Program-made: the position numbers and the translations under genes
The notes under the pieces: generated by a model
What the model was told of the DNA's origin: nothing
Databases searched by the model: none
The model's input: the letters and a program-made list of their open reading frames with translations, nothing else
In this document: piece by piece, positions 1,342 through 10,807 of the stretch
Layout of the letters: each line of letters opens with the position of its first letter
Numbering within the stretch: position 1 is the stretch's first letter
NCBI GenBank assembly: GCA_015485665.1
Contig: WFTC01000001.1
Coordinates: 28,576-92,575, forward strand
From: Candidatus Altimarinota bacterium
GTDB taxonomy: Bacteria > Patescibacteriota > Gracilibacteria > UBA1369 > 2-02-FULL-48-14
DNA length: 64,000 bases
Reading direction: 5' to 3'

Positions 1342-2586
1342 TTAGCCGCGACGAGTTTTAATAGCTTTTTCGAGTCGCTTCATCGCGGTGATAAAAGCTG
1401 CGACCCGATAACTACAGTTATATTTTTTAGCATTGATAGATACATTCCTCCAAGCATCACACATTTTTTCTTTCAATTTTTCATGTACTTCTTTACTGCT
1501 CCAGTAGTAATTCATCTTGTTTTGCACCAACTCAAAATAACTTACGGTAACTCCTCCGGCATTAGCCAAAATGTCAGGTATAACATCCACTCCTTTTGCA
1601 GATAAAATATCATCCGCTTGCGGGGTGATTGGACCGTTAGCAAGCTCAACAATCACTTTTGCATTTACAGCTTCAGCATTGCCTTCATGAATCTGATTTT
1701 CCATGGCAGACAAAATCAAAACATCACATTCCAAAGTCAGAAGTTCTTCATTCGTAATCATAGAGCAAGATTGTCCCGCCATTAGGCATTCAGATACTTT
1801 GCCTTGCTCAGCTTTACAATTTAATGCCTTTTTAGGTTGAAGCCCATCTTTACAATATAGAGCTCCTTTGGAATCTGATACAGCAATTACTTTAAACCCT
1901 GCATCATGCAAGATATGAGCTACATGAGAGCCTGCATTTCCAAATCCTTGTACAACCACGCTTTTACCTCCAATTTTTTCAGAATTTTCTTTCAGGTATT
2001 CTTGCAAAACGAATATACCACCTTGTGATGTTGCATCGGCACGACCTTCAGAGCCTCCTACAGCAAGCGGTTTTCCGGTTACAACGCCGGCTATGTTTTT
2101 ACCTTGCAGCTTTGAGTATTCATCCATAATCCAAGCCATAATCTGCGGATTTGTGTAAACATCCGGAGCAGGAACATCTTTTTCAGGCCCTATAAAAGGT
2201 GAAATATGCCTTGTAAATTCACGAGTGAGACGCTCAAGTTCAGCCTGTGACAGCTCCTTGGGATTCACAATAACACCACCTTTACCACCACCAAGAGGAA
2301 TATTGACAACAGAGCATTTCATAGTCATCCAAGTTGCAAGAGCTTTAACTTCATCAATGTCAACATTGGGATGATAGCGAATGCCTCCTTTGTAAGGACC
2401 TCTTGCGCTATTGTGCTGAACTCTCATGCCACGGAAAATGCGTAATGTTCCATCATCCATTTTAACTGGTAAGCTAACCTCAATAATACGCTCCGGATTT
2501 CGTAAAATAGACCCCACTTTGGGATCCAAATTCATAAGTTCCGCCGCTTTATCAATTTGCGATAATGTATTTTTGAATAAAGACAT
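1342..2586 (-). CDS. gdhA: Glu/Leu/Phe/Val dehydrogenase (glutamate dehydrogenase)
   Basis: QHNSARGPYKGGIRYHP, PLGGGKGGV, DVPAPDVYTN and a Rossmann VQGFGNAGSHVA motif. Confidence 0.93.
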   Translation of the reverse strand: MSLFKNTLSQIDKAAELMNLDPKVGSILRNPERIIEVSLPVKMDDGTLRIFRGMRVQHNSARGPYKGGIRYHPNVDIDEVKALATWMTMKCSVVNIPLGGGKGGVIVNPKELSQAELERLTREFTRHISPFIGPEKDVPAPDVYTNPQIMAWIMDEYSKLQGKNIAGVVTGKPLAVGGSEGRADATSQGGIFVLQEYLKENSEKIGGKSVVVQGFGNAGSHVAHILHDAGFKVIAVSDSKGALYCKDGLQPKKALNCKAEQGKVSECLMAGQSCSMITNEELLTLECDVLILSAMENQIHEGNAEAVNAKVIVELANGPITPQADDILSAKGVDVIPDILANAGGVTVSYFELVQNKMNYYWSSKEVHEKLKEKMCDAWRNVSINAKKYNCSYRVAAFITAMKRLEKAIKTRRG

Positions 2587-2629: not shown

Positions 2630-3175
2630 TCAATGACTCAGCCAGTCAAAGAAATATCCCAAAAAACTTCGTGGCTTGCGTCTTTCTTGTTCAAGTTCCT
2701 TTTGTAGCTTTTGAACAATCTCAATCATTAACATAAGTTCACGATGATGCGATTCCATCAGTTTGGCAAGTTCTTTTTTGTCAATACCATCTAAAATGGC
2801 TTGTTTATGTGGCTGTTTCCCGTGTTGATTAATCAACATTTTATTTTGACTAGTCAAACTGGAGTTATCCGCTTGTAATTGAGGTTCAATAGACTTTTCC
2901 ACAGGGGTTTTATACAACATTTTACCACCTTCGACTGAATCGGTTTTTACTGCTTTTTTCTTGACTTTCTCAATATTCTTATTTTTTCCTTTGCTCTCAA
3001 TAGAGGTCAAAGGAATGACATAATGAAAGCCTTGAGGCGTGGAAATACGTGTTGCTAACAGGTTACCATTTTTTATCATTCGCCTTATGGTTTGCGGTGA
3101 TTTGCCCAATTTTTGGGCAGCTTCTTTGATTGTAATAAACTCCTCGTTCATGTGGGAAGTATGATTAGACAACAA
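2630..3175 (-). CDS. MerR/excisionase-like helix-turn-helix protein with coiled-coil and aromatic C-terminus
   Basis: N-terminal EEFITIKEAAQKLGKSPQTIRRMIKNGNLLATRI HTH; C-terminal HRELMLMIEIVQKLQKELEQERRKPRSFLGYFFDWLSH. Confidence 0.75.
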   Translation of the reverse strand: MLSNHTSHMNEEFITIKEAAQKLGKSPQTIRRMIKNGNLLATRISTPQGFHYVIPLTSIESKGKNKNIEKVKKKAVKTDSVEGGKMLYKTPVEKSIEPQLQADNSSLTSQNKMLINQHGKQPHKQAILDGIDKKELAKLMESHHRELMLMIEIVQKLQKELEQERRKPRSFLGYFFDWLSH

Positions 3176-3193
3176 AGTGTCGCCTTATCACAA

Positions 3194-3418
3194 GTGTATA
3201 GGCGAAATATGGCTTTATGTAAAGGAAAATAGCACTTTGTATAGGCGCCGACTAGTCAAAATTATACAACATTGTATAGGCGAAATGTTGATTAATCAAC
3301 ACGCCCGATTTTGACTAGTCAAAAGGGCTTTTAAACCTGTTAATTTTGACTAGTCAAAACTCATATTTTGACTAATTGACAAAAATTCGCCTATACAAAT
3401 TTTGACTAGTCAAAATTT
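3194..3418. repeat. Clustered palindromes TTTTGACTAGTCAAAA / GTTGATTAATCAAC plus TTGTATAGGCG repeats
   Basis: TTTTGACTAGTCAAAA at 3309-3324, 3344-3359 and 3400-3415; CGACTAGTCAAAA at 3249-3261; GTTGATTAATCAAC at 3287-3300; TTGTATAGGCG at 3237-3247 and 3272-3282, inverted CGCCTATACAA at 3388-3398, and GTGTATAGGCG at 3194-3204. Confidence 0.9.
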
Positions 3419-3493
3419 AAGATTTGTCTATGTCGGTGCTTGGTTTATTTACTTAAAATTTGATAAGCTGCATGCGGATTTATTTTTTCTATC

Positions 3494-4045
3494 GTGGACG
3501 ATATACGCCTTTCTTGGGACCTGCTCATATTAGTTTTTTTCGCTCTTGTTATAGCATATAGCTTCATTATTGGGCGTAATCAGGCTTTAAAGGTTATTAT
3601 TTCATCTTATATGGCAGTTTTAACTGCGGACGGCATATCAGGTCTTTTTGAAAATTACTTACTTCCCGCAGCACCTGCCCTGCAAGGAGAGGCAGGCGAG
3701 CAAACCTTAATACTGATGAAAATGTTTCTTTTTGTGCTTGTGATGGTTGTTTTGGTAATAAAAGGAGGGTATAGGGTGGATTTATTGCCTGAGAGTTCTT
3801 TATTGACGCGTTTTTTATCAAATTTTAGCTTTGGCTTTCTTTGCGCAGGGTTAATGGTAAGCACGCTTTTGGTTTATCTGACAGGAGGTTCTTTTGTGAC
3901 AGGTACGGTTCAAGCGGCAATGGATACCAATCTTTATAAAGAATCTGAGATGGTGCGTTTGATGATAGATAATTACAGTTTATGGTTCGCTTTACCGGCA
4001 ATAGCAATAGTCTTGGTGAGCTTTTTTGAACCGAGAGAAGTTTAA
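3494..4045 (+). CDS. Hypothetical multi-pass membrane protein (CvpA-like character)
   Basis: 183 aa with several hydrophobic segments; no decisive motif. Confidence 0.6.
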   Translation: MDDIRLSWDLLILVFFALVIAYSFIIGRNQALKVIISSYMAVLTADGISGLFENYLLPAAPALQGEAGEQTLILMKMFLFVLVMVVLVIKGGYRVDLLPESSLLTRFLSNFSFGFLCAGLMVSTLLVYLTGGSFVTGTVQAAMDTNLYKESEMVRLMIDNYSLWFALPAIAIVLVSFFEPREV

Positions 4046-4099
4046 ATGCCCTGAAAAATTTCTCTTGCGTCTTGATCATTAGATCCCTAAAATGCCGAT

Positions 4100-4174
4100 G
4101 GGTCAGTAGCTCAGGGGTAGAGCAACAGCCTTTTAAGCTGATGGTCGTGGGTTCGATTCCCACCTGACCCACCA
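4100..4174 (+). tRNA. tRNA-Lys (anticodon TTT)
   Basis: GGGTCAG...CTGACCC acceptor stem, CAGC-CTTTTAA-GCTG anticodon arm, GGTTCGATTCC T-arm, encoded CCA. Confidence 0.95.
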
Positions 4175-4281
4175 CTTTTCAACAAGACAAAATAGACAAG
4201 ACCGTCTACAAAATCATTTTTCTACAGGTTCGTATAAGACAAAAAAGCGCTATATACTTTTCCACAATACTTTGTGCGAAA

Positions 4282-5400
4282 CTAAAAGAATCCGCCTTTT
4301 TCATTTACATCAATACCACTTATATCAGCTAATTGCTTATATAGGCTTTTTTCTTTGCGTGAAAGTTTTTTCGGAACATCAAGTAAAATTGTTACAAGGT
4401 GATCACCTTTTTTGTCTGAATTGAGAGTAATGGAGCCCTTTCCTTTCAATGTGAATACAGTGCCGTTTTGCGTTCCTGATGGGATTTTAAGCGATTCTTT
4501 TCCATAAATGGTATCTACCATCACTGTGGCACCCAAAACACCTTGTAAGAGGTGAATATTCTCATTTGAATATATATTGGAATTTTCTCTTGTAAACTTT
4601 GGATGGTCCGCAACGCGCACATATAGGTAGAGGTCCCCGTATGGGCCACCAAAAAGACCAGCTGAACCTTTTTCTCTCATACGAATGCGCGCACCACTCT
4701 CAATGCCAGCAGGAATTTTAACACTTATTTCTTTCCTTTGATTTGTGCGCATGCGCCCTTTGCAAGTTTTACAAATTTTTTCTGGAATTTCTCCTCGTCC
4801 ATTACACTTGCGACATGTATGCAGACTACTTATATTTCCAAGAATAGTCTGCCTTGTACTTCTGATTTGACCTGATCCGTTGCAGTCCACACATCTTATA
4901 ATTTCATGGCCAGGTTCAACTCCACTGCCTTTACAGCTTTCACAATTATCCGGTTTTGTAATTTCCAGATGCTTGATGGTACCAAATACAGCTTCTTCAA
5001 ATTTGATTTCAATTTCAGCTTCAATATCACCTCCTCGCATAGGACCTGGCTTTTTTGCCGATCTTCCTCCAAAACCTCCACCACCACCGAAGAAACTTTC
5101 AAATATATCTGCAAAACCATTGAATGCACTGGGATCAAAATCACCTCTTCCTCCGGAGAAGCCTGCACCAACAGAGCCAAATTGATCGTATTGTTGACGC
5201 TTTCTTTTATCTGAAAGCACCTCATAAGCAGCTTGAATTTCTTTGAATTTCGTTTCAGCTTCTTTATCTCCGGGGTTTTTATCGGGATGATATTTTTGCG
5301 CAAGTTTACGGTAAGCCTTTTTTATTTCCGTTTCACTTGCGGACTTATCCAATCCTAAACTTTTATAGTAATCTGTCATAATTTTATTTAAGGTACACAT
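4282..5400 (-). CDS. dnaJ: Chaperone DnaJ
   Basis: [37 protein letters not shown]-domain with HPD, Gly/Phe region, CxxCxGxG repeats. Confidence 0.95.
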
Positions 5401-5521
5401 ACTTTATATATTTTTCTTTTTTTATCAATAAGTATAGTGCAATATTTTAAAATAAAAGCAATCTATTTAATGAAAAGTTTTGCACAATGTAAATTTTGCC
5501 TTATACATGCCTTTAATTGAG

Positions 5522-5773
5522 TGTTGATTAATCAACATTTTTTGTGTTGCCTAGTCAACATTTTGACCACTTGCGAAGTATGTGGAAAACTGCAATTTAA
5601 TCTGTTGTATACAATAAAAACCGCCTATACATTTTATATTATACAATATCTGACTTATGATTTTAAATTGAATTAAATAATTTTTAGCTATAAGTCAATA
5701 GTCAAAAAATGCCTTTATAAAGCGCTAAAATCAAATCTGACTAGTCGAAAAAAAGCTGGTAAGTTAGTCAACA
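5522..5773. repeat. Second cluster of the same palindrome/repeat family
   Basis: TGTTGATTAATCAACA 5522-5537; TGTTGCCTAGTCAACA 5545-5560; TTGTATACAA 5605-5614; CGCCTATACA 5622-5631; TCTGACTAGTCGA 5736-5748; TTAGTCAACA 5764-5773. Confidence 0.8.
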
Positions 5774-6208
5774 CATGCTGTATATATGCCTTCTACATGT
5801 CAAGTTTGACGCTTTTGTCTATTAAAAAGACTTGAAACTGTGGACAGTATTGGTAAAATCACTCGGACTTAAAATTGCAGAAATTAACCTGTAGTAAATT
5901 AAGATCATGCTTATCTTGAATGTCAAGTGAAAGCGTGAAACAAAGCAGGCTGTCTAGACGTTATAAGAGTCAGTCCGTGCCAAAAAAATCTACGAACTTT
6001 AGAAGCTTCGCTCTTTGAAATCTCGGTAATAGGCGGCACAGCCGTCATTCGCACTAATTGTGCATTTAAGATTCTTTATTATATACATGCGAAGCCACTG
6101 CTCTCTTTAGGTCGAAGTAGTGGTGAGAAAACAAAGACCTTGCTTATTCTTATTTGTGCTTATTCTGTACATTCTGTTGTACATACTTATTTATTAATTA
6201 CAAAAGCT

Positions 6209-9200
6209 ATGGACATTTCTTTCGTATTTCGAAAGTTTAGAAAGTCCATTTCCGGATTCACAATCCTTGCACTCCTTGCTACATTCTTTAGCTTCGGAGT
6301 AGCTCAAGCATCTACTTTCTCAGATACCGAAGGGCACTGGGGAGAAGCGTACATTGATGCGCTTTATGATGCAGGAGTAGTTTCAGGTGATGAAGGAAGT
6401 GATACTTTCAGACCAGACGATACTTTGAACAGAGCCGAACTTGCAAAAATGCTTGTTGAGGCTTACACGGAAGGTCTTGTAGATGGGGCTTCAAACCCAT
6501 ACTCAGACGTTTCCGAATCGGACTGGTTCATTGACTATGCAGCTTCTGCTTACTCTTACGGTATTATGACCGGAAATGGTGATACTGGTAACTTTGACGG
6601 AGCTGAAACTGTAAACAGAGCAACTCTGATTCAAGCTGTTTACAATGCAGCCGGTCTTACAGCCACTGGCAAAGACCTTCCTTTCGACGACGTTATGTCA
6701 TCTGACTGGTACTACGATGCAGTAGATGCCGGTTACTGGTGGAGCGTTATCGATGGTGAAAGCGAAAACACTTACAACCCTGCCGGAGACGCCACTCGTG
6801 CGGCTGCAGCAAAGGTTATTTATAATGGTTGGTACCCTGTGGAACGTGATGGAGGTGACACCGACACCACTGATGACACAGGCGCAACTGACACCACAGA
6901 TACAACCGACGATACTACTGATACAACTACATCAACTTCTACTCTCAACTTGAGCATCGCTGCAGATACACCTGCAGGAGAAACGCTTCCAAGTGGAGCT
7001 ACTTCAGTTGAAGTTTTTGCTTTTGATGCAGTTGCTGAAGGGGACGATGTCAACATTGACAGCATCACCTTTAATCAAGAAGGTGTAGCTTCTCTTCCTG
7101 CAGATCATGCAGTATATGTATACGCTGAAGTAGATGGAATGAATACAAGAATGTCTTCAGGACAATCTGTGAATTCTTCTACTCATGATATCACTTTCAA
7201 CAACCTTGATATTGAAGTTGCGGAAGGTGAAACGGTTCGCGTATCTGTTCGTGTTGATGTTGGAACTGTAAGCTCTACAGGAGAATTCGCGTTCCAAATA
7301 GAATCAGCTGACATGGTTGATGCTGACGGAGCTGATGTAGCCGGAGATTTCCCAATCTTGGGTGAAAGCTTTGATCTTTCAACTACTGCAGCTGGAACTC
7401 TTACAATTGAGAAGAACGGATCCATTGACAACCCTCAATTGGGTGAAGACAGTGCAGTCATTTCCAAGTTTAAAATGACAGCTGCCACTGAAGCCGCTGA
7501 CCTTCAAGAACTTGGTGTATACATTTCAGGTTCTGTGAACACAACTGATATGGCTAACTTCAAGCTCTACGTGAGTGGTGAAGATGAACCTATCGGGATG
7601 GTTGATATGGTAGATTCTCTTGATGTAGCAAGATTCACCGGTCTTGATTATCAAATCTCAAAAGGTGGAACAAAGAGTTTCTACATCACAGCAGACTTCA
7701 ATACAGGTCGTACAGACGATACCGTTAAGGTTTACATTGATGAAAGTACGGATGTACTTGCAACAGGTGATCTATACGGATTCGGTATGGCTATAGACAG
7801 AACACTCTATGATGGTAATGCGGATGCTTGTGCTTCCACATCTTCAAATGATTGTTCTTACTCAACTCTTGAAGGTGGAGATATAACTATTTCTTCCGAT
7901 GGACCAAATGCAATGGATATCGCCATCAATGGTGATGACATCGTTCTTTTGAACTTTGATATTGCAGCTGTAACAGACGTTACTTTCAAGAACTTCCCAA
8001 TAGGACTTCTTGTTTCAGAAGCTACAAATGCTTCAGGTCTCTTGAATGATGATGGAACAACAAGTACAGGAGCTAACTTCACTGATATTAAGATTGTTAA
8101 TACTGAAACCGGTGAAGAAATCTTCTCTTCAGTAGATTCAGATGTATTCACAACAGGATCTATCGGAGGAACAACTGTTGCCGTTGGAACAGATGATGCT
8201 CAAGCTTACTACCTCTACACAGATGATGTTGAAATGTCTGCAGGGGATGAATTGAGCCTTGCTTTGACTGTTGATGTTGAAAACAACACTAATCTTGATG
8301 GAGACACTATTGTTGCTTCTTTGCAACTTGGATCTTCTTATCCTGAAGTTAGAGACAGCAACAACAAAGTGCTTTCTAATTCAAGCTACCTAGTACCTTC
8401 TTCTGCTATCACTTCAAAGACTCATACACTAAGATCTCCTTCTCTATCACTTGCTTTGGCTTCTACGCCTGTAAGTGACACTTTTGTTAAGGGATCTGAA
8501 GATGTTCCATTTACTGGAATTGTATTCACTTGTGGAGATGCTTCCGACTGTAGAATCACAGACCTTACAACACAAGGTTACCTTGATGATGATACAGATG
8601 ACGGAACTGATAACTGGCAAGCTTCTTCTTCCACAGCTACCGACAACGGAACTGTTCTAAATTCCTACGTTGGTTCAATCTGGTTGGAAGATGGAGATGG
8701 TAATGTTGTTGACGGACCTGAATCCGTAAGCGGCACTACTTTTGCAACTACTTTCTCTGACATAGACTGGACTCTTGCAGCAGGTGAAACCGCTATCCTC
8801 TACATCATGGGGGATCTAAGTTCAGATTCTTATAAGAACAGTGATGGAGAATATATTGCCTTTGGTATTGATTCTACTTCAGATGTAACCGTTGAAGATG
8901 AAGATGGAAACACCTTCACTCCAACAGGAACTGTAAATGACACCGCTTCCGGTTCTACAGATCCTTCAACTTATGTAACAGTTTCTGAAGGTGGTTCATT
9001 GACAATTGCCGTTTCAGGTAATAAACCAAATGAAGACATTGTTGTTGCCGGTACTGACGGTGTGGAAGTATCTAAATTCAAATTCACAACAACAGATGAA
9101 GCTTTCTTGGTAACTGATCTTGCACTTAACGCACGTCAAAGTGGTGTTGCACCTGCTAATATCGGTGACTACGACAATAACATTCAAGAAATCACTATTT

Positions 9201-10807
9201 CTTACCCAAATAGCAATGGTGATACTGAAGAAGCTACAGGCTTCCTAACAAACGGAACCGCTAAATTCACAGGTTTGAACTTTTACATTCCTGCAGATGA
9301 TAATGCGGAAATGACAGTTGCCGTTGATGTAAACACAATTGAAGCAGGTGCTTCTGCTAGTGAATTCATCGAACTGAACATTGCATTCAACAACTTTGAA
9401 GCTATTGCACAAGGTTCTGGTGAAACTTACAATGCATCTAAGTACGACTCTACAGTTGCTTCAAACTCAGATCTTGACTTTGGAAATGTTACGTGGACAA
9501 GCACTTCTGTTGCTCTAGGTACAACATCTTCTGCTCTGACTCTTGGTTCTACTGCCACGATCACAACAGCAGATCTTAATGTTACTCTTCCTGTTGGAAC
9601 TCTTGTATTGGTTGATAATGATGGTTCTTTTGATTCAACAAACTCAACCATCTTCGTCCTTACTTCACAGTATGATGATGGAGATACAACTCTTACAGGT
9701 ATGGTGATTGATGATGCTGATACAACACCTGCAAATACAGACAATGTCTACTACTCACTTCCAGGTACTGGTTACTTCACTGCTACTGAACGAATGCATG
9801 TTCAAGAAACCAAGCCTACGCTTGCTTTGAATGCTTCTTCTCCAAGTGGAGTTCAATCAACTAATACAAATGCTCAACCTTTCATTGTTGATGTAACTGC
9901 AGATGCTGCTCAAGATGTAACTCTTCGCTCTGCTGTTTACTTGGATGGTACTTCTGATCTTGATGTAGAATTCAATGGTGTTGATGCTGAAGTTGGACCA
10001 AGTTCTACTCAGTACCTCTCAGGTATTGATACTTCATCTATTAGAGTATCTCTAAATGGTCTGTCAGATAATGACTGTTGGTACACAGATACCGGTTATG
10101 ATCTTAGCAACTATGCTAGAATCAGCGCTTGGTACTATGTAACCGATGATACTACATTAAGCAATGATACCTTTACTTCTGCAAGATACGTTCTTGCTAC
10201 GGATGGTAATGGAGATGCTACAGCAAACACTGAAGTAGCTCTTGATACTGCTACTAACTTGACTGAAGGTGCATGGACTTTCCGTGACGCTGCTCTCTCT
10301 GCTACAGCCGGAGACCAATATCTTGGATTCTGTTTGGCTGGTGCTTCTGAAGCAGGTGATGCGGGAGATTACCTATACCTTGATGAAGTTAAGGTTTACA
10401 ACGAAAAGATTACACTTGACATCAGTGGTTCAGGATCTCTTGCAGCTTCTGATGGAGCTCAAGGTCTTTACGTGAAACTAAAGAACGGAGGTACTACTGA
10501 AGCTCATGGTTTCATTGACCAAACAAGCACAAGTGCTGCAACCGTTGTATTGATTCCAACAATCGCACAAGGCGATATTGAAATCACTGAGGGACAAACT
10601 GAAACTTACGCATTTGAGATGGATACTACCACTCTCATGAATGTGACAAGTAATGATGACTTCCTCACACTCTCTATGGATATGGGTACATCTACGGATG
10701 GAACCATTTCAGCTGGAGATTTCTGGTGGTATGATGATAACGAGACAGTTAAATGGCTCGGAGACGTTTCTACCACAACGCTCAGCAGTAATACTCTTAC
10801 TTACTAG
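6209..10807 (+). CDS. Large SLH-domain surface (S-layer-like) protein
   Basis: Signal peptide-like N-terminus from ATG 6209 (MDISFVFRKFRKSISGFTILALLATFFSFGVAQAS), then three SLH repeats (FSDTEGHWGEAYIDALYDAGVVSGD...FRPDDTLNRAELAKMLVEAY), then a Thr/Asp-rich beta-type region. The track start at 6140 is probably too early. Confidence 0.88.
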   Translation: MDISFVFRKFRKSISGFTILALLATFFSFGVAQASTFSDTEGHWGEAYIDALYDAGVVSGDEGSDTFRPDDTLNRAELAKMLVEAYTEGLVDGASNPYSDVSESDWFIDYAASAYSYGIMTGNGDTGNFDGAETVNRATLIQAVYNAAGLTATGKDLPFDDVMSSDWYYDAVDAGYWWSVIDGESENTYNPAGDATRAAAAKVIYNGWYPVERDGGDTDTTDDTGATDTTDTTDDTTDTTTSTSTLNLSIAADTPAGETLPSGATSVEVFAFDAVAEGDDVNIDSITFNQEGVASLPADHAVYVYAEVDGMNTRMSSGQSVNSSTHDITFNNLDIEVAEGETVRVSVRVDVGTVSSTGEFAFQIESADMVDADGADVAGDFPILGESFDLSTTAAGTLTIEKNGSIDNPQLGEDSAVISKFKMTAATEAADLQELGVYISGSVNTTDMANFKLYVSGEDEPIGMVDMVDSLDVARFTGLDYQISKGGTKSFYITADFNTGRTDDTVKVYIDESTDVLATGDLYGFGMAIDRTLYDGNADACASTSSNDCSYSTLEGGDITISSDGPNAMDIAINGDDIVLLNFDIAAVTDVTFKNFPIGLLVSEATNASGLLNDDGTTSTGANFTDIKIVNTETGEEIFSSVDSDVFTTGSIGGTTVAVGTDDAQAYYLYTDDVEMSAGDELSLALTVDVENNTNLDGDTIVASLQLGSSYPEVRDSNNKVLSNSSYLVPSSAITSKTHTLRSPSLSLALASTPVSDTFVKGSEDVPFTGIVFTCGDASDCRITDLTTQGYLDDDTDDGTDNWQASSSTATDNGTVLNSYVGSIWLEDGDGNVVDGPESVSGTTFATTFSDIDWTLAAGETAILYIMGDLSSDSYKNSDGEYIAFGIDSTSDVTVEDEDGNTFTPTGTVNDTASGSTDPSTYVTVSEGGSLTIAVSGNKPNEDIVVAGTDGVEVSKFKFTTTDEAFLVTDLALNARQSGVAPANIGDYDNNIQEITISYPNSNGDTEEATGFLTNGTAKFTGLNFYIPADDNAEMTVAVDVNTIEAGASASEFIELNIAFNNFEAIAQGSGETYNASKYDSTVASNSDLDFGNVTWTSTSVALGTTSSALTLGSTATITTADLNVTLPVGTLVLVDNDGSFDSTNSTIFVLTSQYDDGDTTLTGMVIDDADTTPANTDNVYYSLPGTGYFTATERMHVQETKPTLALNASSPSGVQSTNTNAQPFIVDVTADAAQDVTLRSAVYLDGTSDLDVEFNGVDAEVGPSSTQYLSGIDTSSIRVSLNGLSDNDCWYTDTGYDLSNYARISAWYYVTDDTTLSNDTFTSARYVLATDGNGDATANTEVALDTATNLTEGAWTFRDAALSATAGDQYLGFCLAGASEAGDAGDYLYLDEVKVYNEKITLDISGSGSLAASDGAQGLYVKLKNGGTTEAHGFIDQTSTSAATVVLIPTIAQGDIEITEGQTETYAFEMDTTTLMNVTSNDDFLTLSMDMGTSTDGTISAGDFWWYDDNETVKWLGDVSTTTLSSNTLTY

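Follow-up and report, generated by a model that had tools for sequence, protein, structure and literature searches.

The locus described here raises the question of whether a small helix-turn-helix (HTH) protein, encoded within a dense array of palindromes, acts in chromosome tethering or segregation or merely regulates its own neighbourhood. A literature search found no description of chromosome segregation in the ultra-small Patescibacteria, and that question becomes testable where one conserved protein is paired with DNA sites that are well defined and clustered. The window, i.e. the whole stretch of 64,000 nucleotides that was analyzed, belongs to a genome of 860 kb (100% complete, 23 contigs), and the coordinates of its relevant features are collected in Table 1.

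The HTH gene had been recognized in an earlier reading of the letters of the window (the sequence-only reading) and is present, although its length was given there as 181 amino acids, which corresponds to a TTG start at 3175; a start at the ATG at 3151, giving 173 amino acids as in homologues, is probably correct. An AlphaFold2 (AF2) model based on 54 sequences comprises a winged HTH (wHTH) at residues 1 to approximately 47–50 (1–50 confident, with pLDDT about 90–95), a variable and disordered linker (approximately 58–115), a helix at 125–158 (pLDDT mostly >90 in this monomer model) and a separate C-terminal helix at 163–172. In the corresponding 54-sequence alignment, residues K17, S18, Q20, T21, R23, R24, T38, P39, Q40, G41, Y44 and W170 are invariant. 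The top PDB match in Foldseek was the RacA-DNA structure 5i44 (probability 1.00, target TM-score 0.63, 27% identity, E 8e-3), closely followed by BldC and phage Xis, the modest E value arising because the small domain alone aligns; a sequence search with the HTH protein gave no match to RacA. By this modelling the protein is a MerR-type winged HTH with a RacA-like fold, and helix 125–158 is a predicted coiled coil between the HTH and the tail. The tail reads PKKxWYxFWK in most families and RKPRSFLGYFFDWLSH in the window protein, and its lipid-binding score (HELIQUEST-type, cut-off 0.68) was above threshold in 97% of 93 homologues versus 24% of control (internal) windows. This basic aromatic tail type is unique among the 884 ORFs of genome G053, and the conserved C-terminal tail is predicted to form an amphipathic, membrane-targeting helix. 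The AF2 model, tail score and invariant W170 agree with the layout of HTH, linker, coiled coil and aromatic tail put forward in the sequence-only reading, and the resemblance to RacA suggested there is matched by the top fold hit.

Matches of the HTH to TIGR01764 and to PHROG excisionases could point to a mobile-element remnant, with an excisionase-type protein and arm-type repeats. Such an origin is very improbable for a single-copy chromosomal gene conserved order-wide in fixed synteny, for which no phage match was found, the single viral-contig match spans 34 HTH residues only, and the sole plasmid match (pCALKR01) is partial. The pCALKR01 protein has a similar HTH, a coiled coil and a KKKGLFSFLRRQ tail, a layout that favours the tether reading given below.

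Every palindrome and TTGTATAGGCG site listed in the sequence-only reading was found in place. When the variants are aligned, TTGACTAGTCAA, TTGATTAATCAA, TTGTATAGGCGA and CCGACTAGTCAA appear to represent one 12 bp pseudo-palindrome, YYGNNTANNCRR, with TTGAYTARTCAA as its best form and a design of central TA and arms YYGNN/NNCRR. The proposal that the two palindromes share one pattern was retained, but TTGTATAGGCG, which had stood apart, was rejected as a separate motif and merged into YYGNNTANNCRR. In the whole 860 kb genome TTGAYTARTCAA occurs exactly seven times, all seven at window positions 2825–5535 (2.7 kb), and a reversed-pattern control gave no match; the sites thus cluster at the HTH gene and are not evenly scattered. 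Five of the eight genomic copies of TGTATAGGCG likewise lie at the HTH/dnaJ locus of the window, four of them near the HTH promoter (3195, 3238 and 3273 on the plus strand, 3388 on the minus strand), and three of these four are full TTGTATAGGCG sites. For the relaxed site YYGNNTANNCRR, counted over the 64 kb window, 12 of 22 matches fall within 3.5 kb, whereas 20 Markov-1 shuffles never gave more than five in any 3.5 kb. The sites form three zones: A at the HTH promoter, with a further partial palindrome at about 3366; B in the HTH linker coding sequence; and C in the dnaJ/S-layer (SLH) intergenic region 2.3 kb upstream. Zone C (5524–5748, upstream of dnaJ), which the sequence-only reading did not include, contains TTGATTAATCAA, TTGCCTAGTCAA, CGCCTATACA and CTGACTAGTCGA.

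Table 1. Genes and candidate binding sites in the part of the window around the HTH gene
Feature	Position	Strand	Remarks
Glutamate dehydrogenase	1342..2586	-	conserved neighbour, 27/40 loci
HTH gene	2630..3151	-	173 aa from ATG; Pfam HTH_17 E 1e-7, AF2 model, 54-sequence alignment
Zone B TTGATTAATCAA	2825..2836		inside TGTTGATTAATCAACA palindrome 2823-2838, HTH linker coding sequence
Zone B TTGACTAGTCAA	2846..2857		within TTTGACTAGTCAAA 2845-2858; encodes LTSQ
Promoter-like TTTACA-N17-TATACA of HTH gene	3195..3223	-	read from sequence
Zone A TGTATAGGCG	3238..3247	+	
Zone A CCGACTAGTCAA	3248..3259		partial palindrome; the fourth, partial copy of the sequence-only reading
Zone A TTGTATAGGCGA	3272..3283		
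Zone A TTGATTAATCAA	3288..3299		inside TGTTGATTAATCAACA palindrome 3286-3301
Zone A TTGACTAGTCAA	3311..3322		inside palindrome 3309-3324
Zone A TTGACTAGTCAA	3346..3357		inside palindrome 3344-3359
Zone A TCGCCTATACAA	3387..3398		
Zone A TTGACTAGTCAA	3402..3413		inside 22-bp palindrome 3397-3418
Membrane-protein gene	3494..4045	+	product of 183 aa without a Pfam family; conserved neighbour, 33/40 loci
dnaJ	4282..5400	-	conserved neighbour, 29/40 loci
Zone C TTGATTAATCAA	5524..5535		upstream of dnaJ
Zone C TTGCCTAGTCAA	5547..5558		
Zone C TGTATAGGCG	5622..5631	-	
Zone C CTGACTAGTCGA	5737..5748		
SLH-domain protein gene	6140..10807	+	divergent from dnaJ; bounds zone C

Homologues of the HTH gene were observed in 72 of 77 Peregrinibacteria/Peribacteria genomes and are thus order-wide, with none detected in G209 and G235, two good-quality genomes of the order. 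Outside the order no convincing homologue was found, weak HTH-type matches having E values no better than 1e-6; the named homologue loci are mostly from Candidatus Peregrinibacteria/Peribacteria MAGs, a few carrying less specific or doubtful labels. Conservation of the motifs near orthologues, an expectation of the sequence-only reading, was borne out. Across 23 genomes (counts compiled by hand, relatives' genome sizes rounded) there are 96 perfect sites, of which 41 fall no more than 10 kb from the HTH gene where 1.76 were expected; in the window's own family all 15 of 15 do so. Compared with 900 control palindromes the target came top in four intervals, namely the promoter zone, -4 to -0.4 kb, the gene itself and +4 to +10 kb. 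When all 4096 palindromic half-sites were scanned without bias in the upstream regions of 67 non-redundant homologues, TTGAnTAnTCAA was recovered, with TTGACT, TTGATT and TTGAGT enriched 45-, 29- and 58-fold, respectively, and otherwise AAAATT alone (6-fold). Zones A, B and C all recur across the own family, the zone B word TTGACTAGTCAA being shared by the HTH linkers of two genomes (G001, G002) and taking the form TTGACTAATCAA in that of G003, and in another family (G025, G041) CGCCTATACA-type sites occupy comparable places. The extended cluster is not universal among relatives, many of which, including families f7, f13 and f14, have promoter-proximal sites alone or no perfect ones.

Sites within the gene were compared with 1000 synonymous-codon shuffles, none of which reached the observed number. 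The HTH genes (n = 65) contain 39 relaxed sites against a shuffle mean of 9.6 and maximum of 17, and those of the own family contain five TTGAYTARTCAA against a mean of 0.53. There is therefore DNA-level selection for sites within the HTH gene. In the own family these sites occupy the linker, which otherwise varies, and impose the peptides LTSQ and SPIQ on it.

The best reading of the locus, given about an even chance of being correct, is a DNA-membrane tether that oligomerises, regulates its own gene and has a centromere-like cluster of sites, favoured because the combination of wHTH, coiled coil and tail matches RacA, RocS, pSK1 Par and TubY. We infer that the HTH protein binds the sites, that its tail binds the membrane and that tethering serves chromosome segregation. 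The MerR/RacA-type wHTH protein would occupy 12 bp pseudo-palindromes (YYGNNTANNCRR, best TTGAYTARTCAA) clustered inside its gene and close by. Once bound, its molecules would oligomerise via the coiled coil, and the basic aromatic tail would attach the protein-DNA complex to the membrane. This part of the chromosome would thereby become a membrane-tethered, centromere-like site, with promoter-covering sites repressing the HTH gene.

The chief alternative is that the protein regulates transcription purely locally, with strong autoregulation, and that its tail aids oligomerisation alone, a possibility that falls somewhat short of probable. Operators at the HTH promoter, within the gene and at the dnaJ promoter would then control, by cooperative binding or looping, the dnaJ–membrane protein–HTH–glutamate dehydrogenase–PPDK cluster, a gene order which is widely kept with the SLH gene divergent. 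No feature is shared more widely than the promoter-proximal sites (at -15 to -90 in many families), and an autoregulator stays viable because they are the only one found across most families. In addition, the CGCCTATACA site at 3195–3204, that nearest the HTH gene, overlaps the -10 box of the promoter-like sequence, an arrangement seen also upstream of the G002 HTH gene and nearly so in G003; zone C occupies a promoter-like place upstream of dnaJ, and HTH_17/MerR domains are common in regulators. However, where dnaJ has been relocated the sites stay with the HTH gene and none is present in the readable upstream regions of dnaJ, far sites, zone C aside, lie mostly inside genes (PPDK, glycosyltransferase) and rarely at other promoters, and a local repressor would not usually combine a coiled coil with an invariant basic aromatic tail while lacking a ligand domain. 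A few of the relatives' sites fall between convergent genes. The multi-pass membrane protein encoded at 3494–4045 could be a partner of the tail.

The closeness of a MerR-like HTH gene to dnaJ, and the own-family sites upstream of dnaJ, would also suit an HspR/HrcA-type chaperone-operon repressor acting at dnaJ. This is barely credible as the sites do not follow dnaJ, and a dnaJ regulator was rejected on their absence from the readable upstream regions of relocated dnaJ genes; moreover, every perfect site of the own genome lies at this locus, and therefore none at chaperone genes elsewhere. In G022 (L277, contig C64), the HTH gene of which is on a different contig, four YYGNNTANNCRR sites lie within 290 bp downstream of dnaJ, about 2.2–2.5 kb after its start.

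The DNA-membrane tether that we favour has several counterparts. The pSK1 Par protein forms a single-protein partition system, with a wHTH, coiled coil and tail, and has centromere repeats upstream of its own gene. Repeated sites directly upstream of the gene are likewise present and conserved here, but pSK1 Par is plasmid-borne and contains DUF536, whereas the window sites are chromosomal and are found inside the gene and at distances of kilobases as well. RacA of Bacillus subtilis, a DNA-membrane tether (PMC6593407), provides the best fold match to the DNA-binding domain and shares the coiled coil and multiple dispersed sites. The sites of RacA reach their highest density close to the origin, and RacA is anchored by DivIVA, whereas the window cluster lies at its own gene with no oriC link found, and anchoring would be direct via the tail. 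A MerR-like HTH, coiled coil and lysine-rich amphipathic membrane-binding C-terminal tail also occur in TubY of type III plasmid partition, which works with TubZ/TubR (PMC7762940); in contrast, no TubZ/TubR-like protein is present among the conserved neighbours of the HTH gene. RocS of Streptococcus pneumoniae (PMC11500499, PMC13042908) is alike in starting with a MerR-like wHTH, continuing with a coiled coil and ending in an amphipathic membrane helix, as well as in its similar length and chromosomal location, and works without ParA. No site cluster at rocS is reported in the text consulted, and the tail sequence differs, the tail here being aromatic and W-rich in most families. RocS also carries DUF536/RocS-like_C, whereas DUF536 (PF04394, three conserved glutamines) is missing from the window protein's listed matches (E up to 5) and from the 25 families that the 54 homologues hit most often; as DUF536 was undetected, RocS/Par membership is not claimed.

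Clustering of sites near oriC, as suggested in the sequence-only reading, was not supported. Although G000, G044 and G049 have an origin-like minimum of cumulative skew approximately 3 kb upstream of the HTH gene, skews of plus-strand and minus-strand genes are similar on both sides of the locus in most genomes, and orientation-corrected skew has no switch at the locus. Linkage to oriC is unsupported because gene orientation explains the local change in GC skew. There is no switch at the HTH gene in G027, G021, G052, G030 and G005, and DnaA boxes near the locus are neither enriched nor clustered; on both grounds an oriC at zone C was rejected. The 998,424 bp single contig of G053 (C1, L143–L192) has one GC-skew sign in every 10 kb block, with no switch. 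A one-sign skew is likewise described for the Microgenomates genome Ch65, with unidirectional replication proposed, and an ordinary skew for Peregrinibacteria (PMC7143001).

Profile searches of the own genome detected no ParA, ParB or SMC, and the ParABS signature (a ParB with ParB_N together with a ParA ATPase) was not found in it. ParB_N (PF02195) is absent from 20 of 25 genomes, the own genome included; the five positive genomes contain three frames of 440–460 aa, which from size alone look like methylase fusions, and others of 245 and 636 aa. AAA_31 ParA (PF13614) exceeded the cut-off in five of the 25 genomes and is absent from all six of the own family. With the SMC_N profile no full SMC was found in the 25 genomes, the matches being RecF-sized (350–470 aa), UvrA-sized or transporter-sized, with identities drawn from size and profile coverage. 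The tested genomes of the order thus mostly have no detectable ParA/ParB and no SMC. It is conceivable, if rather less than probable, that segregation or anchoring independent of ParA, ParB and SMC is performed order-wide by one RacA/RocS-like tether, with a centromere in and around its own gene, partly in linker coding sequence, and possibly with an HTH/coiled-coil/transmembrane (TM) partner whose gene is close by in several families. If true, the RacA/RocS/Par/TubY theme of MerR-like DNA-membrane tethers would extend to the candidate phyla radiation.

This possible partner is a second conserved protein of the order, with HTH_17, a coiled coil and a C-terminal TM helix (cluster 11). In seven of 40 loci its gene is no more than 10 kb from the HTH gene, for example at about +8.9 kb in L055 (G019) and about -7.8 kb in L043, and in G053 it is some 18 kb away (C1:275643-276290). 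Binding of the sites by another protein such as a second HTH regulator, with the HTH gene as one target, is unlikely as the sites track the HTH gene through families and rearrangements and occur inside it, making this gene the common denominator. The conserved proximity of the cluster 11 gene would nevertheless fit such a binder, as would a 500 bp stretch, partly inside this gene and partly behind it, that holds six YYGNNTANNCRR sites in G012 (L197:1681-2580). One of these six encodes LTSQ in the linker of the HTH/coiled-coil/TM protein.
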